From NCBI GenBank assembly GCA_030602785.1, contig JAUVZB010000009.1, positions 1 through 53,511 on the forward strand: 53,511 nucleotides of DNA. Direction: 5' to 3'. This DNA comes from Dehalococcoidia bacterium (GTDB lineage Bacteria > Chloroflexota > Dehalococcoidia > GIF9 > AB-539-J10). Both the position numbers and the translations under genes were made by a program. The notes under the pieces are model-generated. The model had not been told where the DNA came from. It saw nothing but the letters and a program-made list of their open reading frames with translations, and did not search any database. Numbering within the stretch: position 1 is the first letter of the stretch; the number at the start of each line of letters is the position of its first letter. Below are positions 38,998 through 47,789 of this stretch, one piece after another.

Positions 38998-39283
38998 GTT
39001 CTCCTCCTGTTCCTGTGGGCACCTGCCCGTCGACCATCCAGTCTACGCGTCCGCAATTCTCCTCGCTACAGGAGGGAACCACGGGAGTCTCCGAATGCCC
39101 CGTCGGTAATCAGGCCGGGATGCATCTGGACCACTGCACGAACACCTGCATGTCTAACCTCCCGTATGCGAGATTGGACTTCAGGCCAGAAGCTATTGCC
39201 GACAGTGGCAAGCGTTGATTCGTGCACAGGCATGCTACGCTTTCGACAGCGGTGGAGTCTTTCTACCCTGCTGGAGGTTAGCT

Positions 39284-40081
39284 ATGAGCCAGTCTACTGT
39301 CAAACCATCGGTGCACAAAGTCGGCTTCATAACGCCGCCCGGCTGGTTCGACATATCGCCAACCGAGTTCCTGCGTATCGCCCCGAAGAACACAATCGTG
39401 ATGCAGACAGTCATGCGACCCCACACATTCGGCTACAGTGTGGACGAGTTTCTTGCTGCAGAACCTGAGTTGACTGCATGCGCGAATTCCCTGTCGGCAG
39501 CCGGAGCGGATGTCATGGCACAGTTCGGGTACCCCTTCTCGTTCGTACATGGATGGGACGGCGCCCAGCAAGTACAGCAGCGAATCCAGAGCAGCTCCGC
39601 CACACCCTTCGTGATGATGGGGGTGGAAGTGGTGCATGCGCTCAGACACCTCGGGTGCCGCTCGATAGCGGTCGCCACCACGTACTACTCCGCAAAGATG
39701 GCGAATCTGCTCACCGCATACCTGGCAGAGGCGGGGCAGAACATTGCGCTCGCTGAGAACTGGGAATCACTGGGTATGGCAACAGGTACAGACTCGGATG
39801 TATTTGTCGGAGAGGACGAATTGGACCCTATGGATTGGCAGACTCCAGTACACGCAGTTGAGAAAGCGGTCAGGGCTGTCTCACAGAACGCTCCTGATGC
39901 AGACTGCATTCTGGTTACCGGCGGGGGCATGAGGTTGCTGCATATCGCTGAAAGACTGGAGAAGGAAGTAGAGAGACCCATTGTTGCAGGAGATTTGGCC
40001 CTGTACTGGGGATTCCTTCGACGTCTGGGCATTAAGGAAGGCGTCAGAGGACAAGGGAAGTTGCTGGCTACTCTAGTCTAG
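39284..40081 (+). CDS. Asp/Glu-racemase-fold protein (maleate isomerase/arylmalonate decarboxylase-like) lacking both catalytic Cys
   Basis: A 265-residue protein beginning with VGFITPPGW, resembling the maleate cis-trans isomerase/arylmalonate decarboxylase branch of the Asp/Glu racemase superfamily. GVEVVHALRHLGCRSIAVATTYYS and DADCILVTGGGMRLLHIAERLEKEVERPIV are typical blocks. In that family, each half contributes a catalytic Cys. Here the first (normally in a CTSGS-type turn) reads FGYPFS and the second (SCTxxR-type) reads VTGGGMR. Both cysteines are absent; C208 is four residues too early. GGAGG precedes the start. Different chemistry or a binding role is likely. Confidence 0.78.
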   Translation: MSQSTVKPSVHKVGFITPPGWFDISPTEFLRIAPKNTIVMQTVMRPHTFGYSVDEFLAAEPELTACANSLSAAGADVMAQFGYPFSFVHGWDGAQQVQQRIQSSSATPFVMMGVEVVHALRHLGCRSIAVATTYYSAKMANLLTAYLAEAGQNIALAENWESLGMATGTDSDVFVGEDELDPMDWQTPVHAVEKAVRAVSQNAPDADCILVTGGGMRLLHIAERLEKEVERPIVAGDLALYWGFLRRLGIKEGVRGQGKLLATLV

Positions 40082-42641: not shown

Positions 42642-43691
42642 ACGTCGTGCCCCTGCAACCTGTGCCGCGTACGAGAGAGACATCACGGAAACGACCCGCA
42701 GTCCTGGAAGACCGCGAGTCGGACAGTCCTGGCGCCTCTGTCGGTCGCGAGATTGCACTTGTCGTTGCCTGGTGTCCGCGATTTCGCACGCAACGCACCG
42801 CTCACTTTCACGGGCAAGGTCTTGTCACCGGTCTCACAGAAACTGACCCAGTGCCCGCAGGTGGACTGGTTCGCCTCTACGGAGTACGTCCGGCAAGCTA
42901 TCGCGACCTCACCAGGGTTCTGTCCTGGAGAGTCGCGCGATCCGTGCATCACGGTCCTGCACCTGAGCTCACGGCACGGATTGTTGGGGAAGGCAGAAGG
43001 GCTCGCCAGAGGTAGCGCCACTTCGCCGAGACAACGGTCTGAAGGACTACCTCCCCGTTTGTCGCTGCCCCCGGGCACACCACCAACGTCACTCATTCAG
43101 CCTGACCGATGTGCGGCCGCTCACCACCGAACGAACATCGCGATGCTTGCCCTTTCACGCGTACGTTGTCATGCCATGGCATGAGTTCCAGACCAGCGAT
43201 GCGAATCCAGTACCCCCGCGAAGCAAGCAGTTTCCATAACAATGGACTCCCCATCAGAGAGCTTCACGAATCACTTCTCGAACCGGAAGAGAGGCGACGG
43301 ATGAGTCCGCCGGCAGAAACGCAACGACGACCCATGCCGGGCGCAATGCTATTTTCATCCAGCGTCTGAAGCAACAATACGCGTAACTACAGCTAAAGGA
43401 GCGGTGTCGCACTTGGGGGTAGGTGAGAGCAGATCGGGCAACTGAATTGACAAAGTAGCCGCAGCGCTGTAGTTTGGAACAGTTGACGGTCAAGTATTGC
43501 CCGCCGACGATGAAGTGACATCATCACTCTGAGTGCAGTGTCGTCTGCATGGAGTTCCGGGGGGGCTTCGAGGCAGCTTGCCGGACCGGTGCTGCTCGCT
43601 TGAGATTACCGCTCAATTGCCAGTATGCCGGTTCGCATTCCCCGACAGCTTCATCAAACCGGGAGTGTGCCGGATCTTGGGGGAGAGGTTT
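42642..43691. other. Gene-poor region of about 1 kb
   Basis: No open frame here combines a ribosome-binding site with a recognisable family. Several 60-145-codon frames exist on both strands, as expected of GC-rich non-coding DNA. The region holds one copy of a 36-bp dispersed repeat (43135-43170). It may be decayed coding sequence marking the left edge of the headgroup-synthesis segment. Confidence 0.5.
43135..43170 (+). repeat. 36-bp dispersed direct repeat, left copy
   Basis: Shares 30 of 36 bases with 47562-47597, including TGCCCTTTCA and GCGTACGTTG. It contains the palindrome CATCGCGATG. The two copies lie on either side of the 43.7-47.3 kb gene group in the same orientation. Confidence 0.6.
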
Positions 43692-45575
43692 ATGCCAGGA
43701 CAGAGCAAAACCATTCTTGAAATGCTACCGTGCCGGGAGCCAGGCTCCCCGGTGCGAAAAGCCATCATCCTTGCCGCCGGCACCGGCAGCCGCCTGGGGC
43801 CATTCACGGAACACAGCCCCAAATGCCTCGCACCCATCAATGGTGTGCCTATCCTCATCAACATGCTTACTCACCTATCTGACGTCGGTGTGGAAGAAAC
43901 CGTTATCGTTGTCGGGTACCTCAAGGAAAAGATCCATGACAAGGTTGGAAACTCATTCAACGGGATGAGGATTTCCTACATCGAGTCCGACCGCTACGCA
44001 ACGACTAACAACATCTACTCACTCTGGCTTGCCCGAGAGCATTTGAACGAGGACATCGTGCTGCTGGAATCGGACATATTCTTCGAGCGGTCGCTGCTGG
44101 ACCACCTGTTTGCGAATGACAATAGAAATGTAGCGGCTGTCGCCCGGCATCAATCCTGGATGTGTGGAACGGTAGTCAGCATTGATAAAGAGGGCAACAT
44201 ACAGGCACTGCTGGAAACACGATACCAGGGCCCCCAATTTGACTACTCCAGGGTGTTCAAGACAATCAACGTCTACCTGTTTCGCCGTGATTTCCTGCGC
44301 GCTCAGTTTGTGCCTCGACTGGAGACCTTGATTAACGCCGGTGACGTCAACCAGTACTACGAAGTCATCCTCCATGCGACGGCCTACAATCAGCGGCACA
44401 GCATGATGGCACTGTTGTGTGATGACATCAAATGGTTTGAGATTGATTATGAGAATGACCGGCTAAGCGCCGAATACCTGTTCGCATCGCCGGATGAGCG
44501 CTATGATGTTGTCACCCGCGAACACGGGAGCTACTGGCAATACGACTTCACCGACCATACTTACCTCTATAACCTCTACTTCCCCCCGGAGGCAGCCTTT
44601 TCTCATATGCGGAATCACGTCTATGACCTGATAGAGAACTATCCGGCAGGACAGGGCGCCCTTGCCAGTCTGGTTGGCCAGGTAATCAATCAACCGGCAC
44701 AACGGATCGTGGTGGGTAATGGTGCTGCCGAACTCATCAAGATTATCTCGCGATACGTGTGTAGCAGGTTGATTATCCCGGAACCATCTTTCAATGAGTA
44801 CGCCAACGCCGCGCCCGAAGGGAAGGTCACCGGCTTTGCCCTCAAACCGCCTTTGTTCGAGTTGGACGTGGATGAGTTTGCCGCCGAGGCCCTCCGGTGC
44901 CAGGCCGATGTGGCAGTGGTAGTCTCGCCCAACAACCCGACATCCCTGCTGGTTCCGAAGACCGACCTTCTGCGTCTCGCGGGCCAGCTGGCTGGCCAGA
45001 ACTGTCTCCTCATCGTTGATGAATCCTTCATTGACTTTGCTGAAGACAGGGACCAGTCGACTCTGGAGCAGGAGGTTGCTGACCACAAGAACCTGGCGAT
45101 CATCAAGAGCATGAGCAAGGCTTATGGTATCTGCGGGTTGCGGCTTGGCTATCTGCTCACGGCCAACCAGGAGTTAGCCACCGCGGTGCGGAACGAAGTG
45201 CCCATATGGAACATCAACGGCTTTGCCGAGGCCTTTCTGCGCCTCCTCCCACGCTATAGTCGCGATTTCGTTGACAGCTGCCAGAAGGCGAAAATCGACC
45301 GGGATGACCTGTACCGAAGGCTGGCTTCAATACCAGGGATGACAGCTTACAAACCGCAGGCCAATTTCGTCTTCTGCCGTCTCCCTGATGAGTCGATGTC
45401 CGGCCCCGAACTAACCCGCCAGTTGTTCACCGAACACAACATCTATGTCAAGCATTGCGCCGGGAAGCCGTTGCCGGAGCCTGACCGGTATCTTCGTATC
45501 GCCAGCCGTACCAAGCCCGAGAATCGCACACTCGTCGAGGCTCTGAGGAGTCTGGTTGTGAGGAAACGGTCATAG
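43692..45575 (+). CDS. Bifunctional nucleotidyltransferase (LicC/PntC-like) - PLP aminotransferase/decarboxylase fusion
   Basis: A 627-residue fusion. Residues 20-260 are a sugar-nucleotidyltransferase-type domain (ILAAGTGSRLGPFTEHSPKC, then LLESDIFF with the metal-binding Asp). This type activates phosphocholine or aminoethylphosphonate with CTP. Residues ~300-627 are a fold-I PLP enzyme near HisC/CobD, with VSPNNPTS (411-418), IVDESFIDF (D443) and PLP lysine K476 in KSMSKAYGICGLRLGY. Such fusions are known in phosphonate tailoring (PntC with aminoethylphosphonate transaminase). No PEP mutase or phosphonopyruvate decarboxylase is in the window, so a phosphoserine/phosphothreonine-derived aminoalcohol is an equal possibility. 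GGGGAGAGG precedes the start. The phosphatidyltransferase follows after one base. Confidence 0.85.
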   Translation: MPGQSKTILEMLPCREPGSPVRKAIILAAGTGSRLGPFTEHSPKCLAPINGVPILINMLTHLSDVGVEETVIVVGYLKEKIHDKVGNSFNGMRISYIESDRYATTNNIYSLWLAREHLNEDIVLLESDIFFERSLLDHLFANDNRNVAAVARHQSWMCGTVVSIDKEGNIQALLETRYQGPQFDYSRVFKTINVYLFRRDFLRAQFVPRLETLINAGDVNQYYEVILHATAYNQRHSMMALLCDDIKWFEIDYENDRLSAEYLFASPDERYDVVTREHGSYWQYDFTDHTYLYNLYFPPEAAFSHMRNHVYDLIENYPAGQGALASLVGQVINQPAQRIVVGNGAAELIKIISRYVCSRLIIPEPSFNEYANAAPEGKVTGFALKPPLFELDVDEFAAEALRCQADVAVVVSPNNPTSLLVPKTDLLRLAGQLAGQNCLLIVDESFIDFAEDRDQSTLEQEVADHKNLAIIKSMSKAYGICGLRLGYLLTANQELATAVRNEVPIWNINGFAEAFLRLLPRYSRDFVDSCQKAKIDRDDLYRRLASIPGMTAYKPQANFVFCRLPDESMSGPELTRQLFTEHNIYVKHCAGKPLPEPDRYLRIASRTKPENRTLVEALRSLVVRKRS

Positions 45576-45576
45576 G

Positions 45577-46269
45577 ATGAGCACGTCCGAGCTGCCGCTG
45601 GAGCCGAATCCTGGCAGGCCCGGGGCGATTCGCCCTTCCATCGCCGAGACGAACGGGAGACCCGTCATCCTGTCTTTCATGAAGGACATCCCCAACATCA
45701 TGACCCTGATGGGGCTGAGCAGTGGGGTTCTTGGAATCTACTTTGCCCTCGTGGGGAACTTCCCGGCGGCAATAGTCGCCATGCTCTGGGCTGTTCTATT
45801 CGATTGGTACGACGGTACCGTCGCCCGCCGGATACCGGGGAGAAGCAATACTCTCAGATCATTCGGCGCCAAGATGGATTCTCTGGCGGACATGGTCAGC
45901 CTGGCGGTCTGTCCGGCTATTATCCTGCTGAGCTATGGGGATTTCAGCCCGTGGTTCTTCCCGGGGGCTCTGGCTATCGTAATGGCCGGCGTCGTCCGGC
46001 TGGCCTACTTCGACACCTTCGGCGTTGATAAGGACGGTACCATCGCCGGACTATCACTGGATATCACCCCTCTCTCCCTGGCTCTGGTGTTCTTGCTGCA
46101 CAGCGTCCTGAACCCTGCTGCCTTTGTAGTTCTCCTCTACAGCATGATAGTAGCTCTGTCATTGTTGCACGTCGCACCCTTCCGGATGCACAAGATGGGC
46201 GGACGTTGGTATTACGTCATCACCGCCTACGTCCTGGCTATGACGGTCGTGTACGCCCTGATCCTGTAG
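45577..46269 (+). CDS. CDP-alcohol phosphatidyltransferase family membrane protein
   Basis: A 230-residue membrane enzyme with about six hydrophobic segments after a 35-residue hydrophilic N-terminus. The family motif is D76-WYD79-G80-TVA83-R84 ... G97-AKM-D101-SLA-D105, with all metal-binding Asp residues present. Between AR and G there are 12 residues (RIPGRSNTLRSF) instead of the usual 8-9. It would join a CMP-activated group to an alcohol (or the reverse) at the membrane. Being encoded 1 base after the nucleotidyltransferase-aminotransferase fusion, it probably uses that enzyme's CDP product. This is an inference from context. Confidence 0.88.
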   Translation: MSTSELPLEPNPGRPGAIRPSIAETNGRPVILSFMKDIPNIMTLMGLSSGVLGIYFALVGNFPAAIVAMLWAVLFDWYDGTVARRIPGRSNTLRSFGAKMDSLADMVSLAVCPAIILLSYGDFSPWFFPGALAIVMAGVVRLAYFDTFGVDKDGTIAGLSLDITPLSLALVFLLHSVLNPAAFVVLLYSMIVALSLLHVAPFRMHKMGGRWYYVITAYVLAMTVVYALIL

Positions 46270-46376
46270 GCCAACCAACCCGGATTCTTCTCTACAGGCG
46301 TGCCCTGAGCAAATGATTCTGTAGCCTGGCACAGGGTATGCTGAGCAGGGAGAGCTATCAATGTAGGACCCGGAGG

Positions 46377-47279
46377 CTAGTTCAGTTGGCCAGCAAGGAT
46401 CAGGTGCTCCGTTCCAAGCTGATATACATAGTTAGCGCGCGGTTCAAGTTGCTCCATGTAGAGTATTCGACTGCCATTGCCAAGGCCAATCCTCAACGCA
46501 AACAAGTCCGACTTGGACAGAAGGACCCTGAATGCACCCCTTCTGCCAGTAACATATGTTCCCAGCCCTGGTATGAAGACGTCCACGCCGCTTAGCGGTT
46601 CTCCCTTTTCGTCAATAACATTTACCTTCGTGCATAGCCACCAGGCAAGGCGTTCAATGAGACGACTGGATCTCCTTGACCGGCCGGACTGGCAGCCATT
46701 GGCTATTATGTCGATAACGTCTTCTTCATACTCACCCGTCCCTTTTGGTATCCGCCAGTCATCCCCATACTTGGCACGCAGATATTCTTCAGGCGGGTTT
46801 GGCACCAGGTACTTGTGCCCCATGTATATCACTTCTTTCAAGTCAACAAAGAAACGTAACGGAATAGGGATTGCCGGGTACATGACGATTGCGTCATCAA
46901 TGACCCGGTAGCAACCCCACTCGATCCTCATCGAATCCTTGATGAAGGTAACGCAGGCGTAGTAGTCGTTACGAGTTATCCGTATGAGAAAACCGCTTTC
47001 CCTTAGTTTCGGTATGGTGGATGTAATAGTCTCCTCAGAAAAACCGTGAAATCCGTATATTGAGCCTATGTCTATGTCATCATCCCAGGAAATGAGCTTT
47101 CCATCCCGTACTATGCCAAGGCATGTTCCCTGGCGGAGAAAGAAGACTACGCCATTCTCACTCATCACCTGTTTGACTTCCACCAATAGCCTGTTGGCAG
47201 TAGCTGCATCAACAGGCTGGTCCATTAGACCCAGGACTCTATCGATTTCTGCTTCTTCTTGCTTTGTTTGTCCGAACAT
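46377..47279 (-). CDS. LicD family phosphotransferase with C-terminal carboxypeptidase-regulatory-like domain
   Basis: A 300-residue protein. Residues 30-190 match LicD/fukutin-type nucleotidyl-phosphotransferases: FFLRQGTCLGIVRDGKLISW followed by DDDIDIG (metal-binding acidic triad), and late in the domain EEYLRAKYGDDWRIP. LicD moves phosphocholine from CDP-choline to glycans. After about residue 210, VNVIDEKGEPLSGVDVFIPG and VTGRRGAFRVLL look like a carboxypeptidase-regulatory-type beta-sandwich, an unusual addition. The start at 47279 has AGGAGAGG; a GTG one codon earlier is possible. It is convergent with the phosphatidyltransferase and would use the same kind of CDP-activated group. Confidence 0.85.
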   Translation of the reverse strand: MFGQTKQEEAEIDRVLGLMDQPVDAATANRLLVEVKQVMSENGVVFFLRQGTCLGIVRDGKLISWDDDIDIGSIYGFHGFSEETITSTIPKLRESGFLIRITRNDYYACVTFIKDSMRIEWGCYRVIDDAIVMYPAIPIPLRFFVDLKEVIYMGHKYLVPNPPEEYLRAKYGDDWRIPKGTGEYEEDVIDIIANGCQSGRSRRSSRLIERLAWWLCTKVNVIDEKGEPLSGVDVFIPGLGTYVTGRRGAFRVLLSKSDLFALRIGLGNGSRILYMEQLEPRANYVYQLGTEHLILAGQLN

Positions 47280-47789
47280 CACCTCTCCTCGTTACGAAAA
47301 GTTATCTGCAAAGAACCGGGGTTGCCACTGCATGGCGCCGACGTTCCTGCTACTGAGTGCATTAGGGCTGGGATTCCCTGTCAGTTACGCCAGCGTTTCT
47401 TGATAGTGTTGAATACCGCGACAAGCAGGCTCCCCCAACTGTATCAGGGACAGTTAGCCTCCCCCCCGTCTTCCCGTTCACCCAACGTGAGAGCTAGCTT
47501 GAAGGTTCCACGTATCGTACGGTAACGCCCACTCTGCGGAACTCGAATTGGGTACTGGCAGACATCGGCATGTCTGCCCTTTCATGCGTACGTTGCCGCA
47601 TAGCCGAAGCTTGACCACAAGCTCGAACTGGCCGGACTCGGAAAGATGCGATACCTGTGGCTTGGGCTGGATGTGCCCCTACCCCGTAGTTGACATGGGT
47701 GCTGGCCATAGTCCGCCGCGTCGTCGGTCTACCGGGGCCCCCAACTCACAACCAGTACAGGCCTTGAAGGTAGGGACACCTCACATCCA
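47280..47789. other. Intergenic region without a convincing gene
   Basis: About 510 bp between LicD and the tautomerase. It contains the right copy of the 36-bp dispersed repeat and a C-rich run near 47460. Short frames here lack ribosome-binding sites and family resemblance. Confidence 0.45.
47562..47597 (+). repeat. 36-bp dispersed direct repeat, right copy
   Basis: Counterpart of 43135-43170 (30 of 36 identical). Its left part forms the hairpin CAGACAT-CGGC-ATGTCTG (47559-47576). Confidence 0.6.

Follow-up and report, generated by a model that had tools for sequence, protein, structure and literature searches.

In a 53,511-nucleotide stretch of DNA from a Dehalococcoidia bacterium (contig JAUVZB010000009.1 of GCA_030602785.1; hereafter the window, to which coordinates refer unless a locus is named), we identified a gene whose product is a fusion of a LicC/PntC-like cytidylyltransferase with a CobD/SMUL_1544-like pyridoxal phosphate (PLP) enzyme, and which is followed by a gene for a cytidine diphosphate (CDP)-alcohol phosphotransferase. 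This fusion is a minor form of a three-gene operon common to bacteria and archaea, which was overlooked in an earlier interpretation of the window made from its letters alone (the sequence-only reading). From gene presence, order and conservation, residue identities and predicted folds we infer substrates, products and acceptor alike, and on balance we favor a scheme in which the gene set would turn phosphoserine into CDP-ethanolamine and attach ethanolamine phosphate to a lipid or another hydroxyl compound. Here, the PLP half would decarboxylate O-phospho-L-serine to phosphoethanolamine, the N-terminal half would combine this with cytidine triphosphate (CTP) to form CDP-ethanolamine, as its substrate-site residues suggest, and the membrane phosphotransferase would use CDP-ethanolamine to place phosphoethanolamine on a hydroxyl acceptor; at those loci where a methyltransferase or ATP-grasp ligase is encoded next to the operon, that enzyme could go on to modify the amine. 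The sequence-only reading had already raised a CDP-activated amino-phosphate made with neither a phosphoenolpyruvate (PEP) mutase nor a choline kinase and passed to the CDP-alcohol phosphotransferase; this part of it is supported, with phosphoserine decarboxylation, one of its examples, as the most likely origin.

Conservation and evolution of the operon

We scanned a single genome for each species and recovered 79 loci, distributed over Bacteroidota, Desulfobacterota, Methanosarcinales, Chloroflexota, Ignavibacteriota, Spirochaetota, Actinomycetota, Alphaproteobacteria and others, and 83 neighborhoods were compared. The commonest layout has separate adjacent nucleotidyltransferase (~270 aa) and PLP (~370 aa) genes, followed by the phosphotransferase; nine loci, one of them in the window, have the fused form. 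Of the 83 neighborhoods, 75 contain a member of the phosphotransferase family, at most one gene from the PLP gene and, in 73, directly after it. Since this holds across many phyla, the adjacency is far beyond chance and the three-gene unit is real. L008 keeps all three parts in a different order. Among the neighborhoods lacking the family, L045, L060 and L061 are cut at a contig edge and L089 is a distant homologue. A class-III aminotransferase gene follows the PLP gene at L007 (4243-5577), L029 (11994-13352) and L078 (after 6126). At L025, a divergent fusion is preceded, at a distance of 33 bp, by an unrelated CDP-alcohol phosphotransferase of the PIP/DIPP-synthase-like type (1597-2394) in place of the family; its genome (G218) does have PEP mutase, and the arrangement is possibly a phosphonate version of the pathway. 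In a Methanosarcina genome (L030, 9986-16308) the whole operon stands in tandem duplicate, the two PLP copies being identical in the tree.

In the PLP-domain tree, the split forms group together with good support, to the exclusion of all fused forms; a single fusion or fission, with later transfer between phyla, would be consistent with this. The nearest relatives of the window's fusion come from Dehalococcoidia and a Bipolaricaulota metagenome-assembled genome; in a set of 198 genomes, made up of the window's own (G000) and related ones, it is carried by G000, G007 and G017 alone, and the six other genomes of the host genus lack it.

Two kinds of accessory gene recur. In 17 loci, drawn from several phyla, the operon has a gene for an uncharacterized S-adenosylmethionine (SAM)-dependent methyltransferase beside it (e.g., L006 12565-13521, L055 12602-13444 and L041 12439-13305), and no specific NCBIfam model fits this family. 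An ATP-grasp protein is present in 6 loci and matches amino-acid ligases weakly; in unrelated organisms its gene lies directly after the operon (L038 12754-14025, L019 13176-14294, L040 4456-5739). Both are plausible amine modifiers, and beyond the operon and the methyltransferase no other neighbor cluster occurs in more than six loci. We found no description of the operon, or of a phosphoserine decarboxylase/CDP-ethanolamine pathway, in the open-licence literature. No bacterium or archaeon is known to us to use a route from phosphoserine to CDP-ethanolamine.

Active sites and folds of the three enzymes

By comparison with PDB sequences, the nucleotidyltransferase half is closest to LicC and PntC, and K44, E126, D128, E224, E250 and D252 are invariant in its 35 homologues. 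In PntC, the residues in contact with the primary amine of its substrate aminoethylphosphonate are Glu104 and Glu196, which correspond to Asp105 and Asp192 of the choline-specific LicC (PMC6697681). The corresponding E126, placed by direct alignment with PntC Glu104, and E224, placed through LicC D192 as the stated equivalent of Glu196, are Glu in 35/35, as in PntC, rather than the Asp that LicC has at both positions; K44 aligns directly with the catalytic Lys25 of PntC and is likewise kept in all. Because both amine-site positions are Glu throughout, the predicted substrate is a small primary amino-phosphate and not phosphocholine. A choline headgroup was rejected on this Glu-for-Asp exchange and on the lack of a choline kinase in G000, where a search for PF01633, the choline/ethanolamine kinase of the Kennedy pathway, found none. 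The sequence-only reading had entertained a novel headgroup; the active-site residues point instead to ordinary phosphoethanolamine.

The PLP half has the class I/II fold, with the CobD/SMUL_1544 arrangement and a PLP lysine (K476) kept in 36/36. Its best PDB sequence match is SMUL_1544 (6oux, 123 bits, against 103 bits for CobD), with which it has the motifs WNIN and RIA.RT..EN in common; we take SMUL_1544 to decarboxylate phosphoserine, like Cj1436. The model of this half superposes on 6oux with Z 37.4 (26% identity) and on CobD 1lc8 with Z 37.6. The best NCBIfam model is CobD TIGR01140, at 185.6 bits (176.9 for the split homologue at L075), under the equivalog cut-off of 290.55. Of the families proposed for comparison in the sequence-only reading, CobD is thus not reached by score and aminoethylphosphonate transaminase (AEPT) belongs to class V; it is SMUL_1544 that matches best. 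Cj1436 converts L-serine phosphate to ethanolamine phosphate by decarboxylation (PMC11800397). At L075, from a Spirochaetes metagenome-assembled genome, serA and serC (the latter over its curated cut-off) stand a short way upstream in the same orientation, a placement that is suggestive of phosphoserine. Phosphoethanolamine made from phosphoserine appears to be the likeliest product of the first steps of the operon.

The phosphotransferase has the motif DxxDGxxAR...GxxxDxxxD (D76..DG..AR..G..D101..D105), with its Asp and Gly residues in 68/68. Its model (predicted local distance difference test 92.5) matches the phosphatidylserine synthase MjPSS 7b1k at 2.0 A over 177 residues, with lower scores for DIPP synthase (Z 11.9) and choline phosphotransferase (Z 8.9). 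We compared its residues with 30 PssA-type sequences that the carriers encode (27 of them over the PssA cut-off) and with MjPSS, in which D62, S63, D66 and F105 surround serine and R101 is required (PMC8633023). The catalytic motif, R101 and F105 are kept, as are D62, S63 and D66. The R104 position, R or K in PssA, is Tyr (Y144) in 65/68, and the GLPxPA stretch has become GLxLDNN, with D162, an Asp in 68/68 where PssA has P or T. Since R104 and GLPxPA are swapped though the catalytic motif is kept, the phosphotransferase is, as judged from these residues, a distinct family and not PssA; a PssA function was rejected on the same site exchanges and on the score (79.1 bits against a cut-off of 107). 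It is conceivable that D162 could bind the ammonium of CDP-ethanolamine.

Weighing the alternatives

Several observations weigh against the proposed scheme. The Z scores of SMUL_1544 and CobD tie within error, such that the fold cannot separate phosphoserine from phosphothreonine, and the serA-serC pair is a single locus with a 322-bp gap to the operon. The nucleotidyltransferase site would accommodate aminoethylphosphonate as well. The fold of the phosphotransferase is closest to an enzyme that uses CDP-diacylglycerol and not to choline/ethanolamine phosphotransferases (Z 22.0 vs 8.9), and in three loci (L007, L029, L078) the class-III aminotransferase occupies its position. Finally, Psd is encoded in 41/51 carriers, making phosphatidylethanolamine (PE) redundant there; as PssA over the curated cut-off is also found in 28/51, most carriers are able to make PE already. 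No Psd and no PssA over the cut-off were found in G000 and the other Chloroflexota carriers; the remaining CDP-alcohol enzymes of G000 resemble PgsA, PIP synthase and an archaetidylinositol-phosphate-synthase-like protein, all under cut-off. Given the Psd of most carriers, the operon may provide an additional route to PE or make a soluble phosphodiester. Within the CDP-ethanolamine scheme we lean towards a membrane lipid as acceptor (diacylglycerol or archaeol, giving a PE-type product), and favor it over the main alternative, a small water-soluble compound such as serine, which would yield a soluble phosphodiester in the manner of IPCT/DIPPS. This alternative, which we regard as unlikely although deserving serious attention, would fit the presence of Psd and PssA in so many carriers, the retained serine-site residues of MjPSS, the invariant D162, accessory genes of small-molecule types and the occurrence of the operon in bacteria and archaea alike, whose lipids differ. 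Many carriers belong, by their record titles and by what we take to be their affiliation, to marine taxa, which we also count for it. On the other side, several of the retained residues are common throughout the CDP-alcohol family, a fold of this type normally handles lipid, no such product is known in the carrier organisms, and the Arg of Candida Cho1 that matches the exchanged R104 affects serine affinity (Km) (PMC8727905). A more specific version, in which the product is a stress solute of marine bacteria and archaea (e.g., serine-phosphoethanolamine or a methylated or amidated derivative) and the phosphatidylserine-synthase-like enzyme has switched donor from CDP-diacylglycerol to CDP-ethanolamine, is speculative and rather doubtful.

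The other readings concern the headgroup or its destination. If the PLP half were a phosphothreonine decarboxylase, the headgroup would be aminopropanol phosphate (CDP-1-amino-2-propanol), in keeping with CobD as the best NCBIfam model and with CobD structures that fit as well as SMUL_1544; the shortfall from the CobD cut-off, the closer sequence and shared motifs of SMUL_1544 and the serA-serC pair, with no threonine kinase, beside the L075 operon make this improbable. Phosphothreonine is, moreover, not a general metabolite. A phosphonate pathway, with the PLP half transaminating phosphonoacetaldehyde and the nucleotidyltransferase activating 2-aminoethylphosphonate, would account for PntC-AEPT being the top Foldseek match of the fusion, with the same order of domain types, and for the PntC-like Glu residues of the amine site. 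However, the only PEP-mutase homologue in G000, the PF13714 hit on contig C130 (L001), lacks the EDKxxxxxNS motif and scores 96.1 bits against the TIGR02320 cut-off of 319.55; by motif and score, G000 has no PEP mutase, just as it has no choline kinase, the two enzymes whose lack near the locus the sequence-only reading had noted. PEP mutase exceeds the cut-off in just 2/51 carriers, and the class I/II PLP half is no class V AEPT. We rejected this pathway for G000 on the missing motif and low score, and consider it very improbable. Lastly, in Dehalococcoidia the CDP-linked product might mainly feed the LicD-like enzyme encoded next to the operon, for the decoration of a surface glycan. G000, G007 and the genome of L007 each have one LicD, which neighbors the fusion in the window and at L007 but lies apart from it in G007; across the 198 genomes the fusion is found in 3, LicD in 7 and both in 2 (0.1 expected). 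Yet LicD was not found in six other carriers checked (G017, the genome of L002 and four more), and its gene in the window has the convergent orientation, whereas the phosphotransferase gene follows the fusion after one base. The association is weak and local, and we give the glycan reading little probability; the LicD-like protein is possibly a local glycan phosphotransferase. The regular partnership with LicD and the transfer of the headgroup to both lipid and glycan, as the sequence-only reading had supposed, found no support. L007 is the only other surveyed neighborhood with a LicD homologue (2 of ~80 loci in all), and this survey led us to reject LicD as a core partner of the module.

Relationship to known systems

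The closest precedent in architecture is the Treponema denticola PntC-AEPT (6pd1/6pd2), which likewise fuses an N-terminal cytidylyltransferase to the PLP enzyme making its amino substrate and has Glu at both amine-contacting positions; it differs in the class V transaminase that takes the place of the class I/II CobD-like half and in its PEP mutase pathway, which is not present here, where the usual form is an operon of separate genes with a CDP-alcohol phosphotransferase. Among PDB sequences the PLP half is nearest to SMUL_1544, which is also one of its closest folds, and the reported reaction of Cj1436 is the one we propose, although these enzymes serve norcobamide and capsule biosynthesis. 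We know of no tie of either to a cytidylyltransferase and a CDP-alcohol phosphotransferase. CobD is similar in fold and PLP lysine, but the PLP half scores under its cut-off and is not encoded in a cobalamin operon. The eukaryotic and bacterial Kennedy pathways, including LicCA, also couple a CDP-activated aminoalcohol to a CDP-alcohol phosphotransferase, whereas here the amino-phosphate would come from phosphoserine and not from a kinase, and the transferase is phosphatidylserine-synthase-like. IPCT/DIPPS (CDP-inositol, di-myo-inositol phosphate) follows the same logic of nucleotidyltransferase and CDP-alcohol phosphotransferase, with inositol in place of the amine and without a PLP enzyme. 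PssA/MjPSS, in turn, is closest to our phosphotransferase in fold and motif, and is set apart by the R104 and GLPxPA exchanges, the invariant Asp and the PssA cut-off.

The locus and its genomic setting

The G000 assembly comprises 2.57 Mb in 141 contigs. The single-polypeptide fusion, the phosphotransferase gene beginning one base past its stop and the convergent LicD gene, all recognized in the sequence-only reading, are as it described them (Table 1). Both domains of the fusion have Pfam matches (NTP_transf_3, 51.6 bits; Aminotran_1_2, 117.5 bits), as does the phosphotransferase (CDP-OH_P_transf, 49.8 bits; cut-off 22); in the LicD-like protein the Pfam model aligns over only ~32 residues. 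The mechanical open reading frame (ORF) of the fusion opens at GTG 43533, but ATG 43692 is preceded by GGGGGAGAGG, and homology begins at residues 17-21.

Table 1. Features of the operon and its surroundings in the window
Feature	Position	Strand	Remarks
Fusion ORF, LicC/PntC-like cytidylyltransferase + CobD/SMUL_1544-like PLP enzyme	43692-45575	+	627 aa
Cytidylyltransferase half, predicted CTP:phosphoethanolamine cytidylyltransferase	43692..44498	+	residues ~18-269; best PDB sequence matches LicC 1jyk, PntC-AEPT 6pd1
PLP half, predicted O-phospho-L-serine decarboxylase	44499..45575	+	residues ~270-627; PLP lysine K476; best PDB sequence match 6oux
CDP-alcohol phosphotransferase, phosphatidylserine-synthase-like fold	45577..46269	+	Pfam PF01066; Z 22.0 to MjPSS 7b1k
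LicD-like protein with extra C-terminal domain	46377..47279 (or 47282)	-	Pfam LicD 46 bits
Flanking direct repeat, left copy	43135..43168	+	34 nt
Flanking direct repeat, right copy	47562..47595	+	

The three genes are flanked by a 34-nt direct repeat (85% identical copies), whose 21-nt core TGCCCTTTCANGCGTACGT, with up to 2 mismatches allowed, was found nowhere else in the genome. Ahead of the right copy stands a small hairpin (GGCAGACAT/ATGTCTGCC). Because the same-genus genome G004 has other genes beside the same DNA polymerase beta-subunit gene, together with two near-copies of the repeat (L154 2066-2101 and 3158-3194), the site looks like a cassette-style variable spot, and the data are consistent with gain of the module by transfer. 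An arylmalonate decarboxylase/Asp-Glu racemase-like protein is encoded nearby (39215-40081).

Implications

If the proposed pathway is correct, phosphoserine would be the direct source of CDP-ethanolamine in many bacteria, anaerobic and marine ones among them, and in some methanogens of the archaea, with no need for ethanolamine kinase or phosphatidylserine decarboxylase. The generic annotation of the genes as histidinol-phosphate aminotransferase, nucleoside triphosphate (NTP) transferase and CDP-alcohol phosphatidyltransferase would then mask a way of making ethanolamine phosphodiesters.

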